A stretch of DNA of 45,703 nt from Desulfobacterales bacterium (GTDB taxonomy: Bacteria > Desulfobacterota > Desulfobacteria > Desulfobacterales > JANQIE01), in the NCBI GenBank assembly GCA_028282295.1, contig JANQIE010000233.1, forward strand, positions 1-45,703, written 5' to 3'. A program made the translations under genes and the position numbers. The notes under the pieces are model-generated. The model searched no databases, was not told where the DNA came from, and saw nothing but the letters and a program-made list of their open reading frames with translations. Numbering within the stretch: the stretch's first letter is position 1; every line of letters begins with the position of its first letter. Below, one piece after another: positions 9,058 through 22,624 of the stretch.

Positions 9058-10314
9058 TCAAACCGGCAGCCGTTTGATGGCTGCGCCCAAGGCCGCGAAT
9101 TTTTTCTCCATGGCTTCGTAGCCCCTGTCCAGATGATAGACACGCTGAACTTCGGTGCGGCCTTTTGCGACCAGACCGGCCAAAATCAAGGAGGCGCTGG
9201 CCCGCAGATCGGTGGCCATCACCGGTGCCGCCGACAACGCGGCCATACCGCGGACCATGGCCGTATTGCCCGAAACGGTGATGTCGGCGCCCATACGTTT
9301 TAGTTCGCTGACGTGGATGAATCGGTTTTCAAAAATGGTTTCGGAAATCACACTCAAACCTTTTGCCACCGACATGAGGACCATAAACTGGGCTTGCATA
9401 TCGGTGGGAAATCCCGGGTACGGCAGGGTTTTAATATCAATGCTTGCGATTTCGTCGCGGCCCTGGATGGTCAGACTGTCCTTTCGGATATCGATTTGCG
9501 CCCCGGTTAACCTCAGTTTGTGGATCACCGCGTTTAAATGTGTTGGTTCACAATCGCATATCTCGATTCGGCTACCGGTCAGGGCCGCCGCGGTCATGAA
9601 GGTGCCGGTTTCGATCCGGTCGGGTATGATAGCGACTTTTACTGGTTGCAACGCTGACACGCCGGTAATGGTGATTTCAGACGTGCCCGCGCCCTGAATG
9701 TCGGCCCCCATTTGTGTGAGTACTTCGGCCAAAGCAATGATTTCAGGCTCACGCGCCGCGTTCTTCAGGACCGTGACGCCCTCGGCCAGGACCGCGGCCA
9801 TCATCATGTTCTCGGTTCCGGTGACGGTTACGACATCAAAATAGATATCGGCGCCACACAGCTTTTCAGCTGCGGCCTCCACATAACCGTGTTCCAGTTC
9901 GATGCGGGCCCCAAGACGTTGCAGACCGCGCAGATGCAGATTGATGGGCCGCGATCCGATCGCGCAGCCGCCGGGTAAGGATACCCGCGCTTTTTGAAGG
10001 CGGGCGACCAGCGGCCCTAACACCAATACCGAGGCCCGCATTTTACGAACCAGGTCGTAGGGCGCTTCGTGGTTGCACAAACCGCCGGCGTTGATACGAA
10101 CAACTCCCGGTTCGGGTGTTTCGACCTGAGCGCCCAGGTGAGTGATCAGTTGCTTGATGCTGTCGACATCTCTTAGTTGAGGCACATTGGTAAACTCACA
10201 CCAGCCATCAACCAGAAGGGCGGCTGCCAGGATCGGCAACGCCGCGTTTTTTGCACCGCTTATTTTTACCTGACCGCTTAACCGCCAGCCTCCTTCAACA
10301 ATAATCTTGTCCAT
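9058..10314 (-). CDS. murA: UDP-N-acetylglucosamine 1-carboxyvinyltransferase MurA
   Basis: This catalyses the first committed step of peptidoglycan synthesis, transfer of enolpyruvate from PEP to UDP-GlcNAc, in the cytoplasm. At 418 residues it is of normal length. The N-terminal K22-N23 pair (SGAKNAALP) and the catalytic loop Cys (C117 in [11 protein letters not shown]) are present; this Cys is the fosfomycin target in the family. The C-terminal region has the expected [13 protein letters not shown]. The gene directly precedes comEC and probably shares its transcript. The start follows a plausible but weak ribosome site. Confidence 0.96.
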
Positions 10315-10394: not shown

Positions 10395-10466
10395 AGGGCC
10401 GCGGAAAAAACAAAATGTCCCAAATACGGACCGAAATTTGGGATATTTTATTTTTTCCGCGGCCCT
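10395..10466 (-). terminator. Long palindromic hairpin after the qrc operon, copy H1
   Basis: A 72-base inverted repeat with outer arms AGGGCCGCGGAAAAAA (10395-10410) and TTTTTTCCGCGGCCCT (10451-10466). The stem of about 30 bp has one mismatch and one wobble pair. It lies 36 bases after the last qrc-cluster gene on the minus strand, so it can end or stabilise that transcript. A nearly identical hairpin (H2) is at 28490-28562, so this is also a dispersed repeat. Confidence 0.75.
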
Positions 10467-10501: not shown

Positions 10502-10663
10502 CTAATGGTGATGGCCGCCACCCTTGCCTTTGGCTGTGTCGATGACGGCTTTGATGACGCAATACGTAACCCCCATGCCAAGGATCGACAGCGCGTACCA
10601 CAAGCCGCCATGAAAAACCATATGGCCCATATCCCAAACCCATTCAAATAAAAAGGGAAACAT
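10502..10663 (-). CDS. Small membrane protein at the end of the qrc operon
   Basis: A 53-residue reading frame whose ATG at 10663 is preceded by GGAGGAAAAAA. It begins MFPFLFEWVWDMGHMVFHGG, continues with one hydrophobic segment (LWYALSILGMGVTYCVIKAV, residues 21-40) and ends in a Lys/Gly/His tail (KGKGGGHHH). It follows qrcD by 46 bases on the same strand, and the operon hairpin H1 comes after it. This context and the strong ribosome site make it a credible fifth gene of the qrc cluster. The family is not recognised. A small accessory subunit of the membrane complex is inferred; the His and Met residues near the membrane could also bind metal or heme. Confidence 0.75.
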   Translation of the reverse strand: MFPFLFEWVWDMGHMVFHGGLWYALSILGMGVTYCVIKAVIDTAKGKGGGHHH

Positions 10664-10709
10664 TTTTTTCCTCCGCTATAGGGGCGTTAATCTTGGATGA
10701 GTACTAAAT

Positions 10710-11948
10710 CTATTCGACCGGATTCAATTCCTTTTCCTGCGGAAAAATCGGCAGGTACCGGTAAGATATCATGATCAGGATAATACCGTAGGCTACCGGC
10801 AGAATCGTCGTGGCCACTTCCTGCCAACTCGGCATATACAATTCCCAGGATTCGAACGGTAACACCGGTACGGCCAATACTTGCAGAACCATCACCCAGC
10901 GGTTCAGGCAAACACCCACCGCTGCCAGGATAACTGCGCTAATCAAGGTAAATTTGTTTTTGCGGCCGCCATTGGTAACCAGGATGATGGCCGGGACAAA
11001 GCCGCAGACAACCAGTTCGGTAAACAGGATCCAATAGCCGTAAAGCGCATTATTGGAGTAAAAATGGCTCACGTGCAGCCCCATTTCCGGGGCGGTATGG
11101 GTGGCCCAGTACCAGGTGTCGACCGATTTGGCGATGATGTAAGTCAACAGCATCCAGCCGCTGATTTTCGCCAGCAGTTCGATGACGTTATCCCTGACCA
11201 GTTTTTTGCCGGATATTTTTTCCGTCAGTTTGGTGATGCAAATGGTGAAGCAGGGGCCGCAAGCCGCCGCCGACCAGGTAAACAGAAAAAAGGTGTAGGG
11301 CCAGATCAAGATGTGTTCGCGATACCCAAAAGGCCGGCCGAACAGGACACCGGCCACGCCACCTAAAGAGCCTTGGTGGAAAAAAGACAGGAACGCGCCG
11401 GTGGCCGCAAAGATGGCCATGATTTCATGCATGTTATGGCTCAGATTATGGAAAAAAGGGACCTTGTCGATTTGTTTGTTTTCCAGAATCAGGGGGATGT
11501 ATTCGATGGTCAACACGCCGAAGTAACACGACAGACAAAAGGCCACTTCGGTAAGCATTGAATGCACATTGGCATGCCAGAAGATGAACCAGCCGCGCAG
11601 GGGCTGACCGATATCGATTGCCAGGATCAACAACGCGGAGCTGTAGCAGATAAAACCGATGAGGACAGCGTAGTTGATGATGTTTTTCAACTCGTCCTTC
11701 CCCACGATATACTTTAAAAAACCGGTGAAAAAGGCCCCTCCGCCCAAGGCGATGACCGCAAGGTCGGCCCAGATCCACAATGCAAACCCATAGGCATTGT
11801 TCATGTTGGTTTGATTCAGGCCCTTGATCCAGCACAGCAGCATCGCATATACGCCCCATGCCAGTACCAATCCGACAAGAGTTAGACCAATAGCGAATTT
11901 GGGCAATGGACAGCGCTTGACCCCGTCGGGAATTAATGCAGTATCCAT
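10710..11948 (-). CDS. qrcD: Menaquinone reductase Qrc, integral membrane subunit QrcD (NrfD-like)
   Basis: A 412-residue polytopic protein of the NrfD/PsrC family with about ten transmembrane helices, beginning with VGLVLAWGVYAMLLCWIKGL. In Qrc it carries the menaquinone site in the inner membrane. It is encoded last of the four recognised qrc genes, after the iron-sulfur subunit. AAGGAG lies about ten bases before the ATG. Conserved NrfD features seen include the polar helix region with LRGWFIFWHANVHSMLTE and the WAYT-like stretches HILIWPYTFFLFTWSAAACG. The assignment to Qrc rather than another NrfD complex rests on the operon partners. Confidence 0.92.
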   Translation of the reverse strand: MDTALIPDGVKRCPLPKFAIGLTLVGLVLAWGVYAMLLCWIKGLNQTNMNNAYGFALWIWADLAVIALGGGAFFTGFLKYIVGKDELKNIINYAVLIGFICYSSALLILAIDIGQPLRGWFIFWHANVHSMLTEVAFCLSCYFGVLTIEYIPLILENKQIDKVPFFHNLSHNMHEIMAIFAATGAFLSFFHQGSLGGVAGVLFGRPFGYREHILIWPYTFFLFTWSAAACGPCFTICITKLTEKISGKKLVRDNVIELLAKISGWMLLTYIIAKSVDTWYWATHTAPEMGLHVSHFYSNNALYGYWILFTELVVCGFVPAIILVTNGGRKNKFTLISAVILAAVGVCLNRWVMVLQVLAVPVLPFESWELYMPSWQEVATTILPVAYGIILIMISYRYLPIFPQEKELNPVE

Positions 11949-12017: not shown

Positions 12018-12836
12018 CTAATGGCTTCCGGCCTGTTTTTCATTCTTGAGATAGTTGTCGCCCATTTTACGCACCCACTCACGGCTTGAAAGGTAGTAGA
12101 CCTTGGCGTTGGTTCCCAAGCGTTCGAGCAGGCGAAAAGCGTGCGGCGCCTGGGGACGACCGTGATGCTTATGATCCGGTTTGACAAGTTGGGTAACGGC
12201 ATGGCTCGGATTGTTCAGGTCTCCGAACGTGATTGCGCCAGCCGGGCAGGCCTGGGTGCAGGAGGTCTGATAGTCTTGCTCATCAATGTCGCGTTTACCC
12301 TTGGCATAAGCCCGGTCCTTAGCCTGCTGGAAGCGGTGAAAGCAGAAGCTGCATTTTTCAACGACCCCGCGCATCCGCACCGAGACTTTCGGATTGAGCA
12401 TTTTTTCCATGCCTTCCGGCCAAACCGGGTCCCACCAATTGAAAAGGCGCACGTGGTACGGACAGGCGGCCATGCAATAACGGCAACCAAAGCAGCGTGT
12501 GTAAATCTGGCTGACAATTCCGGTATTTTGATCATAGTCGGTGGCGGTTGCCGGGCATACGGAGACGCAAGGAGAATGCCCTTCATGTTGACCGGCGCAC
12601 TGCATGCACGGGCGCGGCAGGTAACAAACATCATGATCCGGGTAGGCTTTGCCGTTGGTCAGTTTATAGACCCGCAACCATTTCATGCTAAGCAGTTGGT
12701 CGGTTTCGTCTCTGCGAAAAGGCACATTGTTTTCCGACATGCAGGCAACCATGCAAGCTCCGCAACCGGTGCATTTGTCCAGATCGATGGCCATTGCGTA
12801 CAGGTAGTTCTTCGTATGATTTTGCGCTTGTTTCAT
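12018..12836 (-). CDS. qrcC: Menaquinone reductase Qrc, iron-sulfur subunit QrcC
   Basis: A 272-residue ferredoxin-like electron-transfer subunit with four cysteine groups: CTGCGACMVAC, CMQCAGQHEGHSPCVSVCP, CFGCRYCMAACP and CSFC plus a late CTQACP. This matches the pattern of the PsrB/NrfC/DmsB family with up to four clusters. It has no signal peptide, as expected for a subunit carried with its Tat-exported partner or tethered to it. It is expected to pass electrons between QrcB/QrcA on the periplasmic side and QrcD in the membrane. It lies 19 bases downstream of qrcB. Confidence 0.93.
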   Translation of the reverse strand: MKQAQNHTKNYLYAMAIDLDKCTGCGACMVACMSENNVPFRRDETDQLLSMKWLRVYKLTNGKAYPDHDVCYLPRPCMQCAGQHEGHSPCVSVCPATATDYDQNTGIVSQIYTRCFGCRYCMAACPYHVRLFNWWDPVWPEGMEKMLNPKVSVRMRGVVEKCSFCFHRFQQAKDRAYAKGKRDIDEQDYQTSCTQACPAGAITFGDLNNPSHAVTQLVKPDHKHHGRPQAPHAFRLLERLGTNAKVYYLSSREWVRKMGDNYLKNEKQAGSH

Positions 12837-12855: not shown

Positions 12856-15078
12856 TTAGGCTTTGGACAATTTTGCCCGAATTCCCCAGGTCGCATCCAA
12901 ACCGGATACCGGATCTTCGGTCATTCCAACCAAGGCATTGTAGTTTACGCCTTTGCCGGCTAAAAAATCATCGTAAGCCGTATGCCCCAATCCTCGGGGA
13001 AGCGCCACCACATCGGGGGCCACACCCTCGGTAATATGCACCCGCACCTTGGCTTCACCTTTGGGCGTTTTCAGTTTGGCGGGTTTGCCGTCGGCCAATT
13101 GCAGGGCAGCGGCTGTTTTGGGATTCACTTCCACTAGTACGTCATTGCCTTGCAAAACAGTTTCGTCCACCGATTTGACCAAAAAGGGCGGTGATCCAAT
13201 GGGCCCGGAGGCAATGCGCATGGTATCGTAGGGTAAAAGCAAATGCGGGTAAGTTGTAGCATCGCCCTGCGGTAAAGCCGGCTGGGATTCCAAGGCTGCG
13301 TTCAGGTCCGGGTTGCTGAATTCGAATTTCGACGACGCCGTATCAAAGGTGCCGAACCCAAGGGGCGCCGCAACCTCTGGGCCTTGCCAGTAGCCCTTGC
13401 GGTTTAGTTCATTCCATTTGTCGCCAAGGGTTTCCCGTAAGCAGGTTGGGTAGTCCTGCCATGGAAAAGCTGCGGCAATGTTGCCGCCCAAGGCGTGCGC
13501 CAGGGCGATAATCACATCGCCGGTGTGTCGCGTGTCGAACAAGGGGCCGATTGCCGGACGGCTCAGTCCGATGATATTTGCCGGATAGGCGGCCGGCGAG
13601 GGAACATCTTCGAGTCGCTCCAGATACATGTGGTTCGGCAGGATCAAGTCGGCCATTTGAGCGGTTTCATCCATAAACGATGCGAAACTGACGATAAACG
13701 GAATTTGGGCCAACGCAGCACGGGTCGCTTCGGCATCGGGCATTGTATATAATGGATTGACATCCGCAACGAAAAGAGTTTCGATGCTGTCCCCCTTGCC
13801 GGTATTCAAGACTTCGGGTAGTTGGTTTAGGAGAGAACGGCTATGCGGGTAGCGGCTGCTGCCCGCGCCATCGATGCGTCCTTTCTGCATGCCGGCAACG
13901 GCGATGGCGTCCATGGTCGCTTCCGGCCAATCGATGTCGTCGGCTTCCGGAATCGCAATCACACCGCCTTGTCGGTTTATATTGCCCACCAGGGCGTTGA
14001 GGGCATGCACGGCGATGTAGTCGCTCAGGTGGCCCGGTGTAAGGCCCTGACCGCGACCGCAAATCGCCAGCGGTTTGCGCGCACGGGCAAATGCCCGGGC
14101 CAGCGCCACGATCTTTTCAGCGGGCACGTCCGTGATGCCGGCAACAGTTTCCGGTGCATATTTGCCAAGTACCAGTTGTTTGAACGTTTCGAATCCAGTG
14201 CTGTAATTGACGACAAAATCGCTGTTGTGCAGATTTTCATTGATGATAACATGGGCCAAGCCTAAAGCCAGGGCCCCCTCGGTGCCCGGTTTGACGGCGA
14301 CCCATTCATCGGCCTTGGCCGCCGATACCGATAGGCGCGGTTCCACTTGAACGACGCGTCCAGTCGATTTTAACAGGCTATTGGCCTTGAACATATAAAC
14401 GCTGGAACCCCAACCCTGAATCATGCCGCTGCCGAAACTCAGGATGAAATCGGCATTTTTCGCATCCACGCCGACACTGGCGCGCATTCCGTGCATGAGG
14501 TAGAGGGTCATTTCATAGTTGTCCAGATAAGAAGGGGTGCTGAAGAAATTGGGTGAACCGTATACGGTCAACAAGCGCTGGAAAAGCTGCGCCACGGTGC
14601 CCCGGTCACGTCCGAAGACACCGGCTACGCTGTGGCTTTTGTCGGCAGCGCGCAAGGTTTTGAGTTTGTCAATGACCATCGCCAAGGCATCTTGCCATGA
14701 AATCGGTTCCCATCGGCCTTCACCCCGGTTGCCGATGCGCTTTAGCGGCTTTTGAACCCGAGTCGGGCTGTAGAGCAATTGCGGACCGGCTATCCCCAAA
14801 ATACAGACACCGCCCTGGTTGACGGGATAATCTTCGATGCCTTCAACTCTTATGACACGGTCGCCCGCTTTTTTTACCGTGATACCGCAACCGCCCGGGC
14901 AGAGATCGCAAACGGAGTGGGTGTAGGTGATCGCGCCTTTGTCCGGCACCGGTGTCCACGGCCAGTTTTGCGACCAGATGGACAGGTCGTCGGTCAGCTT
15001 CCAGGGAAGCGGCGTCAACGCGGTTCCGGCAGCCCCACCGATCGACAGTGCCAGAAAACATCTTCGGTCTAGTTTCAT
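12856..15078 (-). CDS. qrcB: Menaquinone reductase Qrc, molybdopterin-family subunit QrcB
   Basis: A 740-residue protein of the molybdopterin oxidoreductase superfamily. The N-terminus has an RRCFLALS motif like a Tat signal. A [4Fe-4S] motif follows (CDLCPGGCG, with the fourth Cys in GGVCILG). The large central domain and the C-terminal dinucleotide-binding fold (VEVNPKTAAALQLADG) are present. In characterised Qrc complexes this subunit is reported to lack functional Mo cofactor chemistry and to serve as an electron-transfer scaffold. No obvious Cys or Sec metal ligand can be singled out here, but that needs alignment. It lies between qrcA and qrcC on one strand. Confidence 0.92.
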   Translation of the reverse strand: MKLDRRCFLALSIGGAAGTALTPLPWKLTDDLSIWSQNWPWTPVPDKGAITYTHSVCDLCPGGCGITVKKAGDRVIRVEGIEDYPVNQGGVCILGIAGPQLLYSPTRVQKPLKRIGNRGEGRWEPISWQDALAMVIDKLKTLRAADKSHSVAGVFGRDRGTVAQLFQRLLTVYGSPNFFSTPSYLDNYEMTLYLMHGMRASVGVDAKNADFILSFGSGMIQGWGSSVYMFKANSLLKSTGRVVQVEPRLSVSAAKADEWVAVKPGTEGALALGLAHVIINENLHNSDFVVNYSTGFETFKQLVLGKYAPETVAGITDVPAEKIVALARAFARARKPLAICGRGQGLTPGHLSDYIAVHALNALVGNINRQGGVIAIPEADDIDWPEATMDAIAVAGMQKGRIDGAGSSRYPHSRSLLNQLPEVLNTGKGDSIETLFVADVNPLYTMPDAEATRAALAQIPFIVSFASFMDETAQMADLILPNHMYLERLEDVPSPAAYPANIIGLSRPAIGPLFDTRHTGDVIIALAHALGGNIAAAFPWQDYPTCLRETLGDKWNELNRKGYWQGPEVAAPLGFGTFDTASSKFEFSNPDLNAALESQPALPQGDATTYPHLLLPYDTMRIASGPIGSPPFLVKSVDETVLQGNDVLVEVNPKTAAALQLADGKPAKLKTPKGEAKVRVHITEGVAPDVVALPRGLGHTAYDDFLAGKGVNYNALVGMTEDPVSGLDATWGIRAKLSKA

Positions 15079-15149: not shown

Positions 15150-15860
15150 TTATTTATGGCAGACGAAACATCCACCGCGTAGCGTCTGCACACTACCCTG
15201 ATTGACATTGTTGGCTTTGTGACATTCGGCGCAATCATCCATCTTCATACGGTCCCAAGTGTTTTTCTTGAACCCGGCAATGTTTTTGCCCCAGATATCA
15301 CGGCTGTAGCCGGTGATGCGGTTCTCTTCATAGACACGCGTTTGCGTACTGACACCAATGTCGCCATGGCAGGTTTTGCATTCCATATTTCCCATCTTGA
15401 CATGGGCGATATGGGAAAAGAAAACACAGTCCGGTTGACGGGCATAAACCAGCCAGGGAACTTCCTTGCCGGTTTTGACATATTCTTCGACAAACCGGGC
15501 CTCTTCTTCACTTTCGCCCAGGACGTCTTCATGGCATTCCGCACAACTTGCCAGTTTAGGGATTCCCGAAAAACTGCCGTCTTCCCGGAAATAGTGGCAG
15601 CTCGCACAGCCTTCTGCACTTATTTCCGGATCCATATGCATGGCATGATTGAAATTGACGGGTTGGGTTTTTTGCGAGTAGAGTAACTTGGGAAAGACGG
15701 CCCAGCCGATAATGAGACTGATCACAATCCCGATGATGAAGGACAACATCACCGGGGCATTGGAATCGGCGGCCGGGGCCGGGTCATGTTTGGGGTGCCC
15801 ATTCTCATCCTCAGGTGTTTGCGGCACATCCGCTGTGGTTTGATCATCTATTGTGCTCAT
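15150..15860 (-). CDS. qrcA: Menaquinone reductase Qrc, multiheme cytochrome c subunit QrcA
   Basis: First gene of the qrc operon, 236 residues. The ATG at 15860 is chosen because GGAG lies five bases before it; the frame extends further upstream without such a site. One N-terminal membrane anchor (residues about 37-57) follows a hydrophilic lead. Five CxxCH heme motifs start at residues 85, 106, 161, 210 and 231. A lone Cys at 145 in PDCVFFSH is suggestive of the atypical sixth site, since QrcA is described as hexaheme. The protein receives electrons from periplasmic hydrogenases or formate dehydrogenases through cytochrome c3 and delivers them toward menaquinone. Confidence 0.92.
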   Translation of the reverse strand: MSTIDDQTTADVPQTPEDENGHPKHDPAPAADSNAPVMLSFIIGIVISLIIGWAVFPKLLYSQKTQPVNFNHAMHMDPEISAEGCASCHYFREDGSFSGIPKLASCAECHEDVLGESEEEARFVEEYVKTGKEVPWLVYARQPDCVFFSHIAHVKMGNMECKTCHGDIGVSTQTRVYEENRITGYSRDIWGKNIAGFKKNTWDRMKMDDCAECHKANNVNQGSVQTLRGGCFVCHK

Positions 15861-16791
15861 GGAATCTCCATTAATATTTAGGGGCGATTGAATTCTTCGG
15901 TTTTTCCGCCCGTCACCGATCCTGAACAACACACCCCAAGTTTAACTTGGCTATCCGGATTGCCGACCGCCTTGTTTTTAACTTGCCCGGACCGCTCGAA
16001 AAGCGCCTCAAACCGGCATTTTAGAGCCTTTTATCATCGCAAAGTCAAGCGTAAAAACGCTGCCCCTGCTTACATTGAGTTCTTTTTTTTGTCAAGGGAA
16101 ATCGGATTTCCCTGAAGGCTCTTAACGATGCGGGATTGCTATGTAATTTGGTCTGCGCAGGAACTACCCGAGTCCGGCGCAAGGAGGAGGCCCCGTGCTC
16201 TTTTCCTAATCAAATTAGGAGGGCAAGAACGTATTGTCCGATGAGTTTTTGAGATTGTTGCCGGCCCATATTGATGGGCGGTCAGGGCTACCTATGTGTT
16301 TTGAACTTTCGGTATCGATTTCGGTTTAAACGCGATGCTTCCGGCGTTTGGATGCCAAACACCGTGCGAGATCGATAATGGCGTATAAGTTTTTGAAATT
16401 GATGGTTAAATCTGAAATAAAGGCGTAATTTCGCTCGACCGGCGGCATTGCACAAGATTTGATCAGACGTCACGTTTTCAAAGGCGGGGCATAAAGCTGT
16501 TTTAATGGTTTAATATGCTAAAATTATTGATTAAAAGTTGATTTATACGAGCTGCCTACATTTTTGTGTGGTGATGCACACTTTTATATGCAATTTATTT
16601 TTTTTGTAAAAATATTAAATAATAATAGATAGTTAATGGTTTGGCACGTGGCCGCGCTGACAGCATTCAATATATCCGTTTTTTTACACGAGAATTCAGA
16701 CGCCTTGGCGACAAAACGTTTCGGTTGTAAAGACAGCATCCTGATTATCAGCGTAAAGGGCGTTTGGTTGTTATTGAATTTATAGTTTGTA
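15861..16791. other. Long non-coding interval upstream of qrcA
   Basis: About 930 bases with no convincing gene on either strand; it becomes distinctly AT-rich after 16490. Short hairpins are visible: TCCTAAT/ATTAGGA at about 16205-16221 and GCCCAT/ATGGGC at about 16263-16279. The qrc promoter is expected near 15870-16000, but no consensus elements are clear. Confidence 0.5.
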
Positions 16792-16930
16792 CCCATCCGG
16801 AAATAGTATCTTTTGGTCCAGGCCGGCGTTCTCGCCCAATTGCGGTCCTCGACATAGCGTTGCTACGCCTGCGGTCGCAATTGGGCTGCGGCCTTGGCCT
16901 TAAACAAAAGCTACTATTTCCGGATGGGCA
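16792..16930. repeat. Dispersed hairpin repeat, copy R2 (complete)
   Basis: A full-length copy. The outer arms run CCCATCCGGAAATAGTA... and ...TACTATTTCCGGATGGG. The inner stem is GCCCAATTGCG (16834-16844) with CGCAATTGGGC (16876-16886), a perfect 11-bp pair that differs in sequence from R1, R3 and R4. The loop is the conserved CCTCGACATAGC...GCTACGCCTGCGG. The outermost pair is C-G here and T-A in R3, so the end also covaries. Confidence 0.88.
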
Positions 16931-17292
16931 TTAGTTAATGTTTCCCGGCAAATCCTGTCTTTTGGGCTTGGCCGGCACTCTCTGCCCAGTTAAAATCTCA
17001 AGCGTGCCGTTGTGAAGCCCGTTGTTTCAAATTCCTTGCGACCTTATAAGCCGGATTCGGTGCCGATAGCCGGGCATTGGCTCGATCTGTCAAGAAACGG
17101 AATGGAATCAATATTGGTTTGCCCAGTAAAGTGGGCACCACCTGCCCCCTATGTTGAGCAAAATCCACATGGCTGGAATTTATTTGTAGATAATTCAGAT
17201 AGTTAAAATGTGGCATAGGCTTTGCTCATATTCAGACGGGATAGTGCACTATCACTATGGAGTTCAATTTTTGACGCGTGTAAAGGGTTTTT
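16931..17292. other. Non-coding interval upstream of the histidine kinase gene
   Basis: About 360 bases without a supported gene. It should contain the promoter of the plus-strand kinase. No clear promoter, terminator or RNA gene is recognised. Confidence 0.4.
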
Positions 17293-18869: not shown

Positions 18870-19715
18870 TCACGAACCGCCGACACCATAACTATGCAGA
18901 CCTGGCAGGTAATTAACGCCGAAATAGGTGAAGAGGACGGCCAAAAAGCCGACAATCGATATGAGTGCAATGCGGGTGCCGCGCCAACCGGCCATCAACC
19001 GGCAATGAAGCAGGATCAAATAGATAAACCAGGTGATCAATGACCAGGTTTCTTTTGGATCCCAACCCCAGTAACGTCCCCATGCAGAATACGCCCAGAC
19101 CGATCCTGAAATAATACCCATGGACAAGAAGAGAAAGCCGAACATGACCACCTGATGGGTGAGTTCGTCGATCAACTCGATTCTGGGCAACTGGTTTAAG
19201 ACCGAATCCGGATTTGAGCCGGCCCTGGCCTTGAACAGGTACATGATGCTCAAACCGAAACCGATGGCAAAGGCCGCGTAACCAATAAAACAGGTTATGA
19301 CGTGCGCGATAAGCCAATTACTCTTCAAGGCCGGTATCAACGGCCGGATCTGATCGCTGATGTTCGGATTCAATGAGGCGTATGCCATGGCGGCGAAGGC
19401 CAGCGGGGTGACAAAAGCACCGATGATTCTGCGCTTGTATTTGCGCTCGATAACCAAATAGATTACGACAATGGCAAATGCGAAAAACACCAGCGATTCG
19501 TATAGATTGGATAACGGTGCATGTCCCATGCCCAGCCGGTACGACTCGATCCAGCGCAGGATAATACCGGTGAGATTTCCCAATGCCGCCGTGATGGCAG
19601 CAATGCTGCCGATTTTACCCGCAGCCTCCTTTTTAAATACGATCGATAGGATATAAAAAAACGCCGCCGCCGCGTAGACGAAAGTTATAACGGAAAGGAT
19701 CGTAGAGCTGGTCAT
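18870..19715 (-). CDS. ccsA: Cytochrome c biogenesis protein CcsA/ResC (System II)
   Basis: A 281-residue polytopic membrane protein of the heme-handling family. The tryptophan-rich WWD motif is present in WGRYWGWDPKETWSL. Conserved histidines flank it in the surrounding helices (LIAHVITCF, LTHQVVMFG). The start at 19715 is chosen because GAGGGA lies upstream of MTSSTILSV. It acts with CcsB to deliver heme to apocytochromes c on the periplasmic side, which this organism needs for multiheme proteins such as QrcA. It lies 82 bases downstream of ccsB in the same direction. Confidence 0.93.
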   Translation of the reverse strand: MTSSTILSVITFVYAAAAFFYILSIVFKKEAAGKIGSIAAITAALGNLTGIILRWIESYRLGMGHAPLSNLYESLVFFAFAIVVIYLVIERKYKRRIIGAFVTPLAFAAMAYASLNPNISDQIRPLIPALKSNWLIAHVITCFIGYAAFAIGFGLSIMYLFKARAGSNPDSVLNQLPRIELIDELTHQVVMFGFLFLSMGIISGSVWAYSAWGRYWGWDPKETWSLITWFIYLILLHCRLMAGWRGTRIALISIVGFLAVLFTYFGVNYLPGLHSYGVGGS

Positions 19716-19797
19716 TATTAAGTTTCCCTCTAAATAATAAAAAGCGCCGAGCGATTGAAACGGGTCTGGTCGATGCAATCTGGTGGTGAGACCAGGA

Positions 19798-21174
19798 TCA
19801 GGCCAGTTTTTTCAATTTGTCGACGAGCAATTGGACCGCATTCTCCATGCCAACTTTATTCTGGGACGTTGTACCGGCCACAGCGATTTGAGTTTGGTTG
19901 TCGCGGCGGCTGATTTCGATACAAACCCGCTGGTGCGGTACAAAAAAAGTGATATAGCACCCTATTATCATAATGATGAAACCTGTGTAAACCACGCCCA
20001 CCCCCGGATCCCGGGCGACCTGCAAGCCGGTGTAATACCGTTTTTCGTAATCCACCACCGAGATAACCCACTGTCCTTTGCGCATCTGGTCAAATTCCGG
20101 AAACTGGACCGGCATGCGAACGCGTTGGGCGGGGCCATCAGTAGGCGTCAATGTGCCAATGAACGTTTCTCCAATATTTCGACTGCGAAACTGATCCGCA
20201 TGACGAAAATCCTCGACGATAAACCGACCACCACCTTCGGGTAAATCGATGGGTTTTCCGGGTTGCGCCCGGCGTTCGTATTCCATCTGGGATTGCCGGT
20301 TGGTAAATTTAAGCGTTACTGCCTTGGGGCCCATTTCGCCCAGGCTTGCTTGGTAAATACTGATTCCGGCATGACGCAACGGATCGTTGACGATAATGTC
20401 TTTCTGGGCAACCGGCTTGCCGTTGTTCAACAGGGTCAGCGAACTGCGAAATTCTTTAGGTGCGCCTGAATCGTAATAGCTAACATCGAAATCGTCGCAC
20501 CGGATTGTGAATGGGAGTTTGAGGCGCCGGTTTTGATTGCGAAGTGAAATAACATCAGTGGCTTCACCCTCGGGGATATTCACATAACCGTCAAATCCAA
20601 AACGGGAGCCGATGATGCCGCCCAACAGCAACAGAATTACGCTCAGATGCACCGTATAAACGCCCAGGCGGCCCCAGCGGCCTTTTTCAGCAAATAGGCA
20701 AATCCCGTTGCCGTTGGCGTTGTTTTCAATGCGATGAAAACGGTATTTGCGCGCGATTAGCGGTGCAAACCGTTCTTGTAGTTCCGTCACCGATTGATCA
20801 CTGTCAAACGTTTTACGATTGGACAGGCGTCGAAAGCGATCGGGATTGAAAGCCGGTTTCTGTTTAAATACGATTTTCCATGTGGCGCCCAGGCGTTCGA
20901 TTGAACAAACGACAATGTTGACCACCAGCAGGAAAAGCAACAGTTGAAACCACCAGCTATGGTACATGTCGAATAAATCGAGCGCGTGAAACAGATTGTA
21001 AAAAAAGCGGCCAAAGGCACGCAAATACTCGGCGGGGTCGGCGTTTTGCGGAATTACGGTGCCGAAAATCGAAGTCACCGCCAGGATCAATAGCAGTACA
21101 ACCGAAAGTTTAATCGAGGCAAAAAATTTCCAGAGTCCCTCAAAGGGATCATTTGTGGATTTTGATTTTCCCAT
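19798..21174 (-). CDS. ccsB: Cytochrome c biogenesis protein ResB/CcsB (System II)
   Basis: A 458-residue membrane protein with three N-terminal helices (VVLLLILAVTSIFGTVIPQN; FQLLLFLLVVNIVVCSIERL; VYTVHLSVILLLLGGIIGS), a large periplasmic domain (about 190-395) and a last helix (VVYTGFIIMIIGCYITFF). This is the ResB layout. The start at 21174 (MGKSKSTNDPF) is chosen because the frame upstream of it is low-quality and AAAAGGTAACGG precedes this ATG. It forms the heme-ligation complex with CcsA, encoded next. No thiol-handling partner (CcdA or CcsX) is nearby. Confidence 0.92.
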   Translation of the reverse strand: MGKSKSTNDPFEGLWKFFASIKLSVVLLLILAVTSIFGTVIPQNADPAEYLRAFGRFFYNLFHALDLFDMYHSWWFQLLLFLLVVNIVVCSIERLGATWKIVFKQKPAFNPDRFRRLSNRKTFDSDQSVTELQERFAPLIARKYRFHRIENNANGNGICLFAEKGRWGRLGVYTVHLSVILLLLGGIIGSRFGFDGYVNIPEGEATDVISLRNQNRRLKLPFTIRCDDFDVSYYDSGAPKEFRSSLTLLNNGKPVAQKDIIVNDPLRHAGISIYQASLGEMGPKAVTLKFTNRQSQMEYERRAQPGKPIDLPEGGGRFIVEDFRHADQFRSRNIGETFIGTLTPTDGPAQRVRMPVQFPEFDQMRKGQWVISVVDYEKRYYTGLQVARDPGVGVVYTGFIIMIIGCYITFFVPHQRVCIEISRRDNQTQIAVAGTTSQNKVGMENAVQLLVDKLKKLA

Positions 21175-21676
21175 TCCGTTACCTTTTTTGTATAGCGATT
21201 GAACAGGCCACGATAGCAAATGAATTGCTAAATGACAACCGTTCATACCACATTGTTGTAGCTTTTTGGCGATTGATTGATTGGCAACAATAACAATTGG
21301 TTGAAGACTGTTGCGCGGAATGGTAAGGGGTTGACACCGGTTTATCGGCAACCTGAATTTTGCGGCCCCTATTTTGGGGCGCATGCCATCTGCGCGGGAA
21401 CAGATTTTGGCGTAACCGTGACAGGAGTTCAACTCAGGTCCGGCTTGACATCCAAACCAAAAATATTTAATTATCTTGGCGCAATTATCGCTTTTGCTTT
21501 TATCGTAAAATCTGCCGTCAATTATGCTTTGGGGAAGTAAATCTTCGATTTTCCGTGGAGGCCCGACAGTCTGCTTTGGGATGCAGACATAATTCTGGCA
21601 ATCAGCCTGTACGGGTTTTTTAAAAAAAAGGGTGAAGCAGCAGGTTTGCACGTCAATCGTATCGTGAGGAGTAGGA
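21175..21676. other. Intergenic region between divergent ccsB and the ABC operon
   Basis: About 500 bases between two diverging operons. The open frame running through it on the minus strand is an extension of ccsB without coding character. Both promoters should lie here, but no strong consensus or hairpin is recognised. Confidence 0.5.
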
Positions 21677-22624
21677 ATGGCTATGATCGAGATTAAAAAT
21701 TTAACTAAATTTTTCGGCGCGTACAAAGCCGTGGACGATGTCTCATTCACGGTTAAAAAGGGCGAAATTTTAGGTTTTTTAGGGCCTAACGGTGCCGGCA
21801 AATCGACTACCATGCGCATGATCACCGGTTTTATTCCTCCGTCCGCGGGCACGGCGCTTATCGGCGGTTGCGACATCATTGAAGATTCATTGGCAGCGCG
21901 TGAAAAACTAGGATATTTACCCGAAAACGCTCCGGTTTATCCTGATATGACCGTTGTCCGGTATCTGGATTTTTGTGCCCGCATTCGAGGGTTTGTCGAG
22001 CCTGAACGCAGCCGTAAAGTTGAGGAAACCTTGGAAAAATGTTTCCTGACCGAAGTGACATACCAGAGTATCGATACCCTTTCCAAAGGATTCAAACAGC
22101 GGGTTTGCTTTGCCCAGAGTATTTTACACGATCCGGAATATTTGATTCTGGATGAGCCCACGGACGGTCTGGACCCCAATCAAAAACATGAAGTTCGCCA
22201 AATGATCAGGCAGATGAGCCCGCAAAAGGTCATTATCTTGTCGACGCATATACTAGATGAAGTGGATGCGGTCTGCAGTCGCGCTATTATTATCGCCAAT
22301 GGGCGCATTGTGGCTGACGCAACCCCGGACGCCTTGCGCGCCCAATCGCCTTCCCACGGTGCGGTGTGTGTTACTGTCGGCGCCGCGGCGCCGGAACCGC
22401 TCATACAGCAGCTAACTCAAATTGAGGGTGTTAAAACCACCGAGGTGCTGGCGCAATCCGATGGGGATCTGAAACTGCGGGTCTATCCACAAAGCGATAC
22501 CACCGTCATCGCCGATAGCGTCGTTGCCAGCTTGATGCAAGGTGACGTTGCCGTCAAATCGGTATTTGTCGAGCAGGGGCGTCTGGATGAAGTATTTCGC
22601 AATATAACAAGTAATTCACACTAA
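21677..22624 (+). CDS. ABC transporter ATP-binding protein (GldA-like)
   Basis: A 315-residue ABC ATPase. Walker A (GPNGAGKST), Q-loop region (LGYLPENAPVYPDMTV), signature (LSKGFKQRV), Walker B (YLILDEPTDGLDP) and H-loop (ILSTHILDEV) are all present. A C-terminal extension of about 90 residues follows, as in GldA and NosF types. GAGGAG lies five bases before the ATG. The next genes encode a permease, a GldG-like protein and a DUF4340 protein, a known gene set. The transported substrate is not established for such clusters; gliding is only one context in which they occur. Confidence 0.92.
   Translation: MAMIEIKNLTKFFGAYKAVDDVSFTVKKGEILGFLGPNGAGKSTTMRMITGFIPPSAGTALIGGCDIIEDSLAAREKLGYLPENAPVYPDMTVVRYLDFCARIRGFVEPERSRKVEETLEKCFLTEVTYQSIDTLSKGFKQRVCFAQSILHDPEYLILDEPTDGLDPNQKHEVRQMIRQMSPQKVIILSTHILDEVDAVCSRAIIIANGRIVADATPDALRAQSPSHGAVCVTVGAAAPEPLIQQLTQIEGVKTTEVLAQSDGDLKLRVYPQSDTTVIADSVVASLMQGDVAVKSVFVEQGRLDEVFRNITSNSH

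Follow-up and report, generated by a model that had tools for sequence, protein, structure and literature searches.

The DNA analysed here (the window) is a stretch of 45,703 nucleotides from a Desulfobacterales bacterium (GenBank assembly GCA_028282295.1, contig JANQIE010000233.1) whose minus strand carries the genes of the menaquinone reductase complex Qrc. Qrc is described as an electrogenic complex that passes electrons from periplasmic hydrogen or formate to the menaquinone pool of sulfate reducers (PMC6303296; PMC13059093). Three of its genes score above the equivalog cut-offs of the corresponding NCBIfam models: qrcB (12856..15078), encoding the molybdopterin-binding-like subunit of 740 aa (NF041783.2, 536 bits, cut-off 440); qrcC (12018..12836), encoding the iron-sulfur subunit of 272 aa (NF041782.1, 438.3 bits, cut-off 400); and qrcD (10710..11948), encoding the integral membrane subunit of 412 aa (NF041784.1, 690.7 bits, cut-off 570). 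The qrcA candidate, a gene for a membrane-anchored multi-haem cytochrome c on the same strand (15150..15932), was assigned from its position and from CxxCH motifs recognised by eye, and its start codon possibly lies further in. Some 1.36 kb (15933-17292) separate the qrcA candidate from a sensor kinase-like ORF, and this interval holds no ORF of at least 100 aa and no Rfam or tRNA match. Near the qrc genes, the region 18870-21879 contains two ORFs that by eye resemble CcsA/ResB cytochrome c biogenesis proteins; qrcABCD adjoining ccsAB has been reported in a paper on Desulfococcus multivorans.

Following the qrcD stop codon by 46 nt, a small ORF on the minus strand (10502..10663) starts with ATG and encodes a protein of 53 aa, MFPFLFEWVWDMGHMVFHGGLWYALSILGMGVTYCVIKAVIDTAKGKGGGHHH, for which the working name QrcE is proposed. 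The ribosome-binding sequence GGAGGAAAAAA, which contains GGAGG, stands immediately 5' of this start codon (10664..10674, minus strand). The product consists of an N-terminal segment with the motif FEWxWDxxH, one transmembrane helix (a single hydrophobic segment at residues 23-41 in a 19-residue hydropathy scan), and a Lys/His-rich C-terminus. An initial annotation of this DNA, which gave no strand, had described a 53-residue frame with a strong ribosome site, one transmembrane segment, and a distance of 46 bases from qrcD; each of these points was confirmed. It had also placed the gene last before the operon hairpin. A long hairpin does lie between the small gene and murA (about 10395..10466, minus strand; -47.2 kcal/mol, z -8.0), the latter being the next gene downstream (9058..10314, minus strand), identified by family scan and used below as a non-Qrc control. 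Because no T-run follows the hairpin and it is missing from the output of the terminator scan, its role as the operon end is presumptive. Nearly perfect and very long, it may act as a terminator or stabilise RNA, or it may be a mobile palindrome.

Searching 40 order-level genomes, the source genome among them, gave homologues of the small protein in 35, with E ≤ 4e-12. Across 30 loci, differences at the first, second, and third codon positions amount to 0.248, 0.124, and 0.557, respectively, with a pN/pS of 0.23 and a median dN/dS of 0.12 over the 136 of 435 pairs whose dS is unsaturated. The frame is under purifying selection and is a real gene. Twelve positions are invariant in the 30-sequence alignment (M1, P3, F6, E7, W8, W10, D11, H14, F17, G19, C35, and K38). 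The initial annotation had singled out the N-terminal Trp, His, and Met residues and the His tail, and these observations stand in part. Trp8, Trp10, and His14 are invariant among the 30 sequences, but, the initiator aside, the N-terminal Met residues vary. Likewise, the His tail is common but not universal: at least two His occur among the last eight residues in 113 of 129 distinct proteins from genes linked to qrcD and in 11 of 15 proteins from orphan genes. The C-terminal tail is the least conserved part of the protein; some lineages lack it or have another sequence in its place.

The description of the protein as unrecognised was borne out, as no Pfam, NCBIfam, or PDB family accounts for it. 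Assignment to a named small-protein family was rejected after 36 aligned members were compared with Pfam-A and NCBIfam, where the best stray match (E 0.011) involved one member. Two profiles of the small protein, A1 and A2, retrieved no convincing chain from the PDB (best E 1.6 and 0.33) and no chain of alternative complex III.

The small gene immediately follows qrcD, in the same orientation, in 30 of 30 fetched order-level loci, with gaps of -1 to 510 nt. From 221 relatives recovered in a scan of named contigs, the best 80, selected by the small protein itself, were kept; their contig titles read Desulfobacterales, Desulfobacteraceae, Desulfosarcina, Deltaproteobacteria, and similar. The end of qrcD was readable in 76 of these 80 loci, and in all 76 the small gene lay within 900 nt of it (median gap 21 nt). 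Elsewhere in the phylum, in other orders or classes, 21 of the fetched loci show the same arrangement. The initial annotation had made its proposal depend on conservation of this frame 3' of qrcD in related genomes, and such conservation was found in all three sets of loci. Its view of the gene as the fifth of the qrc operon applies to 41 of 79 carriers in a phylum-wide sample, where it is adjacent to qrcD; in the other 38 it is an orphan gene located elsewhere.

This phylum-wide sample of 395 genomes was searched with A2, a broad 36-row profile. The small gene was detected in 79 of 80 genomes with QrcD and in 0 of 315 without it, numbers in which the positives are not independent, since some of the hits used to build A2 came from these very genomes, while the negatives are. 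Accepted and rejected matches are separated by a wide score gap, the weakest accepted match having an E of 2.6e-13 and the next one, inside a long frame, an E of 2.0e-4. QrcD itself scored above the NF041784 cut-off in 77 of the 395 genomes, and three more with fragments split between contigs (G043, G116, and G348) bring the count to 80. The sole QrcD-bearing exception, G041, is a 66% complete genome in which the contig stops 126 nt after qrcD. A gene of general sulfate reduction was also considered and rejected: dsrA was detected in 190 of the 395 genomes, and among these the small gene is present in 71 of 71 with QrcD and in 0 of 119 without. It is likewise present in eight of the nine QrcD-bearing genomes in which dsrA was not detected. 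In the order-level set, QrcD scored above the cut-off in none of the five genomes without the small gene.

A second sample comprised 109 genomes of a single family, the one that includes the nearest relatives of Desulfovibrio vulgaris by cytochrome c3; some of these genomes are shared with the phylum sample. Here, 83 genomes have QrcD above the cut-off, and 81 of them carry the small gene; of the remaining 26, three do. The exceptions are G521 and G528, which have QrcD and no small gene, and G461 (72% complete), G523, and G489 (which has a QrcD-like protein of 451 bits), which have the small gene and no QrcD above the cut-off. When 19 genomes of this family were compared by position, 14 had the small gene and qrcD on a shared contig, separated by at least 203 kb, and five had them on separate contigs. 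Thus the presence of the small protein family follows QrcD almost one-to-one, also outside the operon, with few exceptions. As a separate observation, two genomes of one genus encode QrcD-like proteins (G463:C14:12157-13305, 383 bits; G490:C284:13501-14643, 357 bits) that score well below the cut-off and well above other NrfD relatives; these genomes do not carry the small gene, and the proteins possibly belong to a different complex.

The surroundings of 29 of the 38 unlinked genes were fetched, and none of them contains a qrcABCD match. This bears on the explanation that the frame is spurious or a mere operon passenger that contributes nothing to Qrc, in favour of which its small size and its place next to the hairpin and murA could be cited. 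Selection acting on the frame, its conservation throughout the phylum, and its co-occurrence with QrcD even when the two genes are unlinked leave this explanation with a negligible probability, and both forms of it were rejected.

The unlinked homologues are recognisable by a core, W..D..H..F....Y.......G, a Lys-rich end, and often a His tail. Their neighbours are lineage-specific; for example, one downstream gene family, phosphomannomutase by eye, is common to nine orphan loci and another to six. In a number of orphan loci (L174, L175, L178-L184, L187, and L188), the core is preceded by a conserved N-terminal extension, roughly FLCxxLKRSVxSMLPWDIPW, that is absent from the operon-encoded form.

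Desulfovibrio-type genomes follow the orphan pattern. The D. vulgaris cytochrome c3, typed in as a query and identical to PDB 1a2i/2cth, has its best matches (85-89%) in six of the eight genomes of one genus. The small gene is present in eight of eight genomes of this genus; in the four in which QrcD was also placed, it lies on another contig (two genomes) or more than 1.2 Mb away (two genomes). In a relative, G509, it is an orphan ORF of 62 aa starting MLHGETIHSPLPQDIPWW and flanked by rpsU/yqeY and HU/rsmA genes, as recognised by eye. A qrcABCD deletion is reported to be complemented by qrcABCD alone (PMC13059093). This outcome would be expected if, as the placement in relatives suggests, an unlinked chromosomal copy of the small gene remained in the deletion strain.

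In 129 distinct linked proteins, the mean number of Lys and Arg residues is 0.02 in the N-flank of the hydrophobic segment and 2.02 in its C-flank; in 15 orphan proteins the means are 0.8 and 2.73. According to the positive-inside rule, the N-terminus with FEWxWDxxH would be periplasmic and the C-terminus cytoplasmic. The small protein is thus predicted to be a single-pass, N-out/C-in protein, membrane-spanning like QrcD; QrcABC are placed on the periplasmic side (PMC6303296). A His-rich C-terminus, present in most linked and orphan members and predicted to be cytoplasmic, might be expected of a protein that, rather than forming part of the quinone module, serves as a linker or regulator between Qrc and a further partner, such as a second respiratory complex or a metal or redox signal sensed by the tail. 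However, the tail is the least conserved part, the invariant residues lie at the opposite end, and the gene occurs in Qrc genomes both with and without dsrA, so that such a role appears improbable.

Sequence comparisons link the small protein to QrcD rather than to MurA. Over 72 loci, divergence of the small protein tracks that of QrcD beyond what MurA explains (partial r 0.33, p 0.0005), whereas it does not track MurA beyond QrcD (partial r 0.04, p 0.27). The strongest coupling in these loci pairs residue 18 of the small protein (His/Met) with QrcD residue 214 (Leu/Phe), with a z of 13.8, whereas no MurA column exceeds 7.7, in runs whose effective sequence numbers are unequal (16.7 for QrcD and 49.3 for MurA). 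The same pair leads in a set of 130 protein pairs (z 9.8; next 7.6), and an aromatic residue occupies QrcD 214 in only 2 of 45 proteins with His18. Simulations along a 73-locus QrcB+QrcC tree gave p values of 0.0013 and 0.0003 for this one pair, which was chosen post hoc and for which the fitted rates fell at the edge of the grid. With the C-terminus inside, both residues would lie on the periplasmic side, and their covariation hints at a contact at the periplasmic end. The remaining couplings are scattered over most QrcD helices, and helix-face conservation of the small protein is borderline (p 0.053).

An assembly or stability factor dedicated to Qrc, which would aid the insertion of QrcD or the docking of QrcC and then depart, leaving no trace in the finished complex, also fits the co-occurrence and operon data. 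The gene is unlinked in 38 of 79 genomes, and an unlinked gene is not unusual for an assembly factor. Qrc preparations with four bands (PMC6303296; PMC13059093) agree with this explanation too. The very high conservation with invariant residues and the covariation with QrcD favour a lasting interface over a transient one, which could nevertheless produce both. On balance, an assembly factor is an unlikely account of the protein, more plausible than the linker or regulator considered above.

For locus L013, an AlphaFold2 model of QrcD joined to the small protein by intergenic read-through (pLDDT 79.4, pTM 0.82) contains a disordered tail as well as a confident helix (model residues 455-487); structure searches with this model returned matches in the QrcD part alone. 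A model of QrcC, QrcD, and the small protein was poor (pLDDT 67.4, pTM 0.60), with QrcC badly folded, and is uninformative on the N-terminal motif. By sequence, QrcD matches no PDB chain at E ≤ 0.01. By structure, the closest solved relative of the Qrc membrane part is alternative complex III, with Z scores of 29.5-32.0 between the QrcD model and ActC, and the QrcD model also shares the fold of CydA/CydB (Z 14.5-16.9).

Single-helix small subunits that long escaped notice are known from other complexes. Of the subunits compared with the small protein, ActG, ActD, and ActH belong to alternative complex III, in which ActG is such a small single-helix subunit and ActH was an unexpected extra subunit (PMC5928083). 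The small protein is likened to ActG by description, with the difference that ActG is missing from some Act clusters (PMC5928083) while the small protein is present in 79 of 80 genomes with QrcD. In cytochrome bd, CydX/CydS and CydH (CydY, ynhF) are likewise small subunits of a single helix that accompany a quinol-reactive helix-bundle subunit; the gene for CydH is an orphan located outside the operon, and the original two-subunit picture did not include this protein (PMC8951039). The CydX families are nonetheless distinct, as they gave no Pfam or NCBIfam match among the 36 aligned members at E ≤ 0.1 and their conserved residues differ. In the succinate dehydrogenase of Mycobacterium smegmatis, a menaquinone-reactive complex unrelated to Qrc, the 3 kDa single-helix subunit SdhF was invisible on SDS-PAGE and was revealed by cryo-EM and MS (PMC7447783). 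Judged by its size, topology, gene placement, and co-occurrence, the small protein probably works like CydX, CydH, SdhF, and ActG.

Overall, it is probable that the small ORF encodes a Qrc-specific supernumerary subunit, QrcE. Qrc has been described with four subunits (PMC13059093; PMC6303296; PMC8076601) and resolved as four bands, to which the small protein would add a fifth; its gene stands in the same operon beside qrcD in 41 of 79 carriers and is present almost solely with QrcD. The proposal of the initial annotation that a small Qrc subunit had been overlooked is supported by this distribution; physical membership in Qrc, contact with QrcD, and an effect on quinone chemistry or stability are inferred. 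Most likely, the single QrcE helix would pack against QrcD, the quinone-reactive subunit of ten helices, with the aromatic and acidic FEWxWDxxH segment on the periplasmic side and the Lys/His-rich tail in the cytoplasm, and would stabilise or tune the menaquinone-reducing module QrcCD. In Desulfobacterales and several other lineages, QrcE would be encoded by the last qrc gene; in Desulfovibrio-type genomes and others, it would be encoded elsewhere and retained wherever Qrc is retained.

A stronger version of this proposal, that the invariant FEWxWDxxH segment borders the quinone site between QrcC and QrcD, helps to bind menaquinone or carry a proton, and makes QrcE an obligatory functional part, is possible but doubtful. 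If it were true, every description of Qrc to date, the 2026 mutant study included, would miss a working part, and in that study the chromosomal copy would have acted in trans, since genomes of the Desulfovibrio type have this gene apart from the operon.

The terms 'QrcE' and 'small protein' are absent from the available portions of PMC13059093 and PMC6303296, and the matches listed for 'QrcE' as a name concern reference electrodes, judging by their titles. In the accessible parts of the fitness literature on D. vulgaris and D. alaskensis, no unnamed small gene is tied to Qrc; 'qrc' occurs 0 times in those of PMC10102598. MS tables of purified Qrc are given in Supplementary Data 1 of PMC6303296. 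A protein like this one could be missed since it is tiny and, in Desulfovibrio-type genomes, encoded outside the operon. The small protein represents an unnamed family of Qrc-linked membrane proteins, the link to Qrc being evident from its distribution. As the structural models and mutants of Qrc rest on four subunits, a fifth protein retained together with QrcD alters what to purify, delete, or model.
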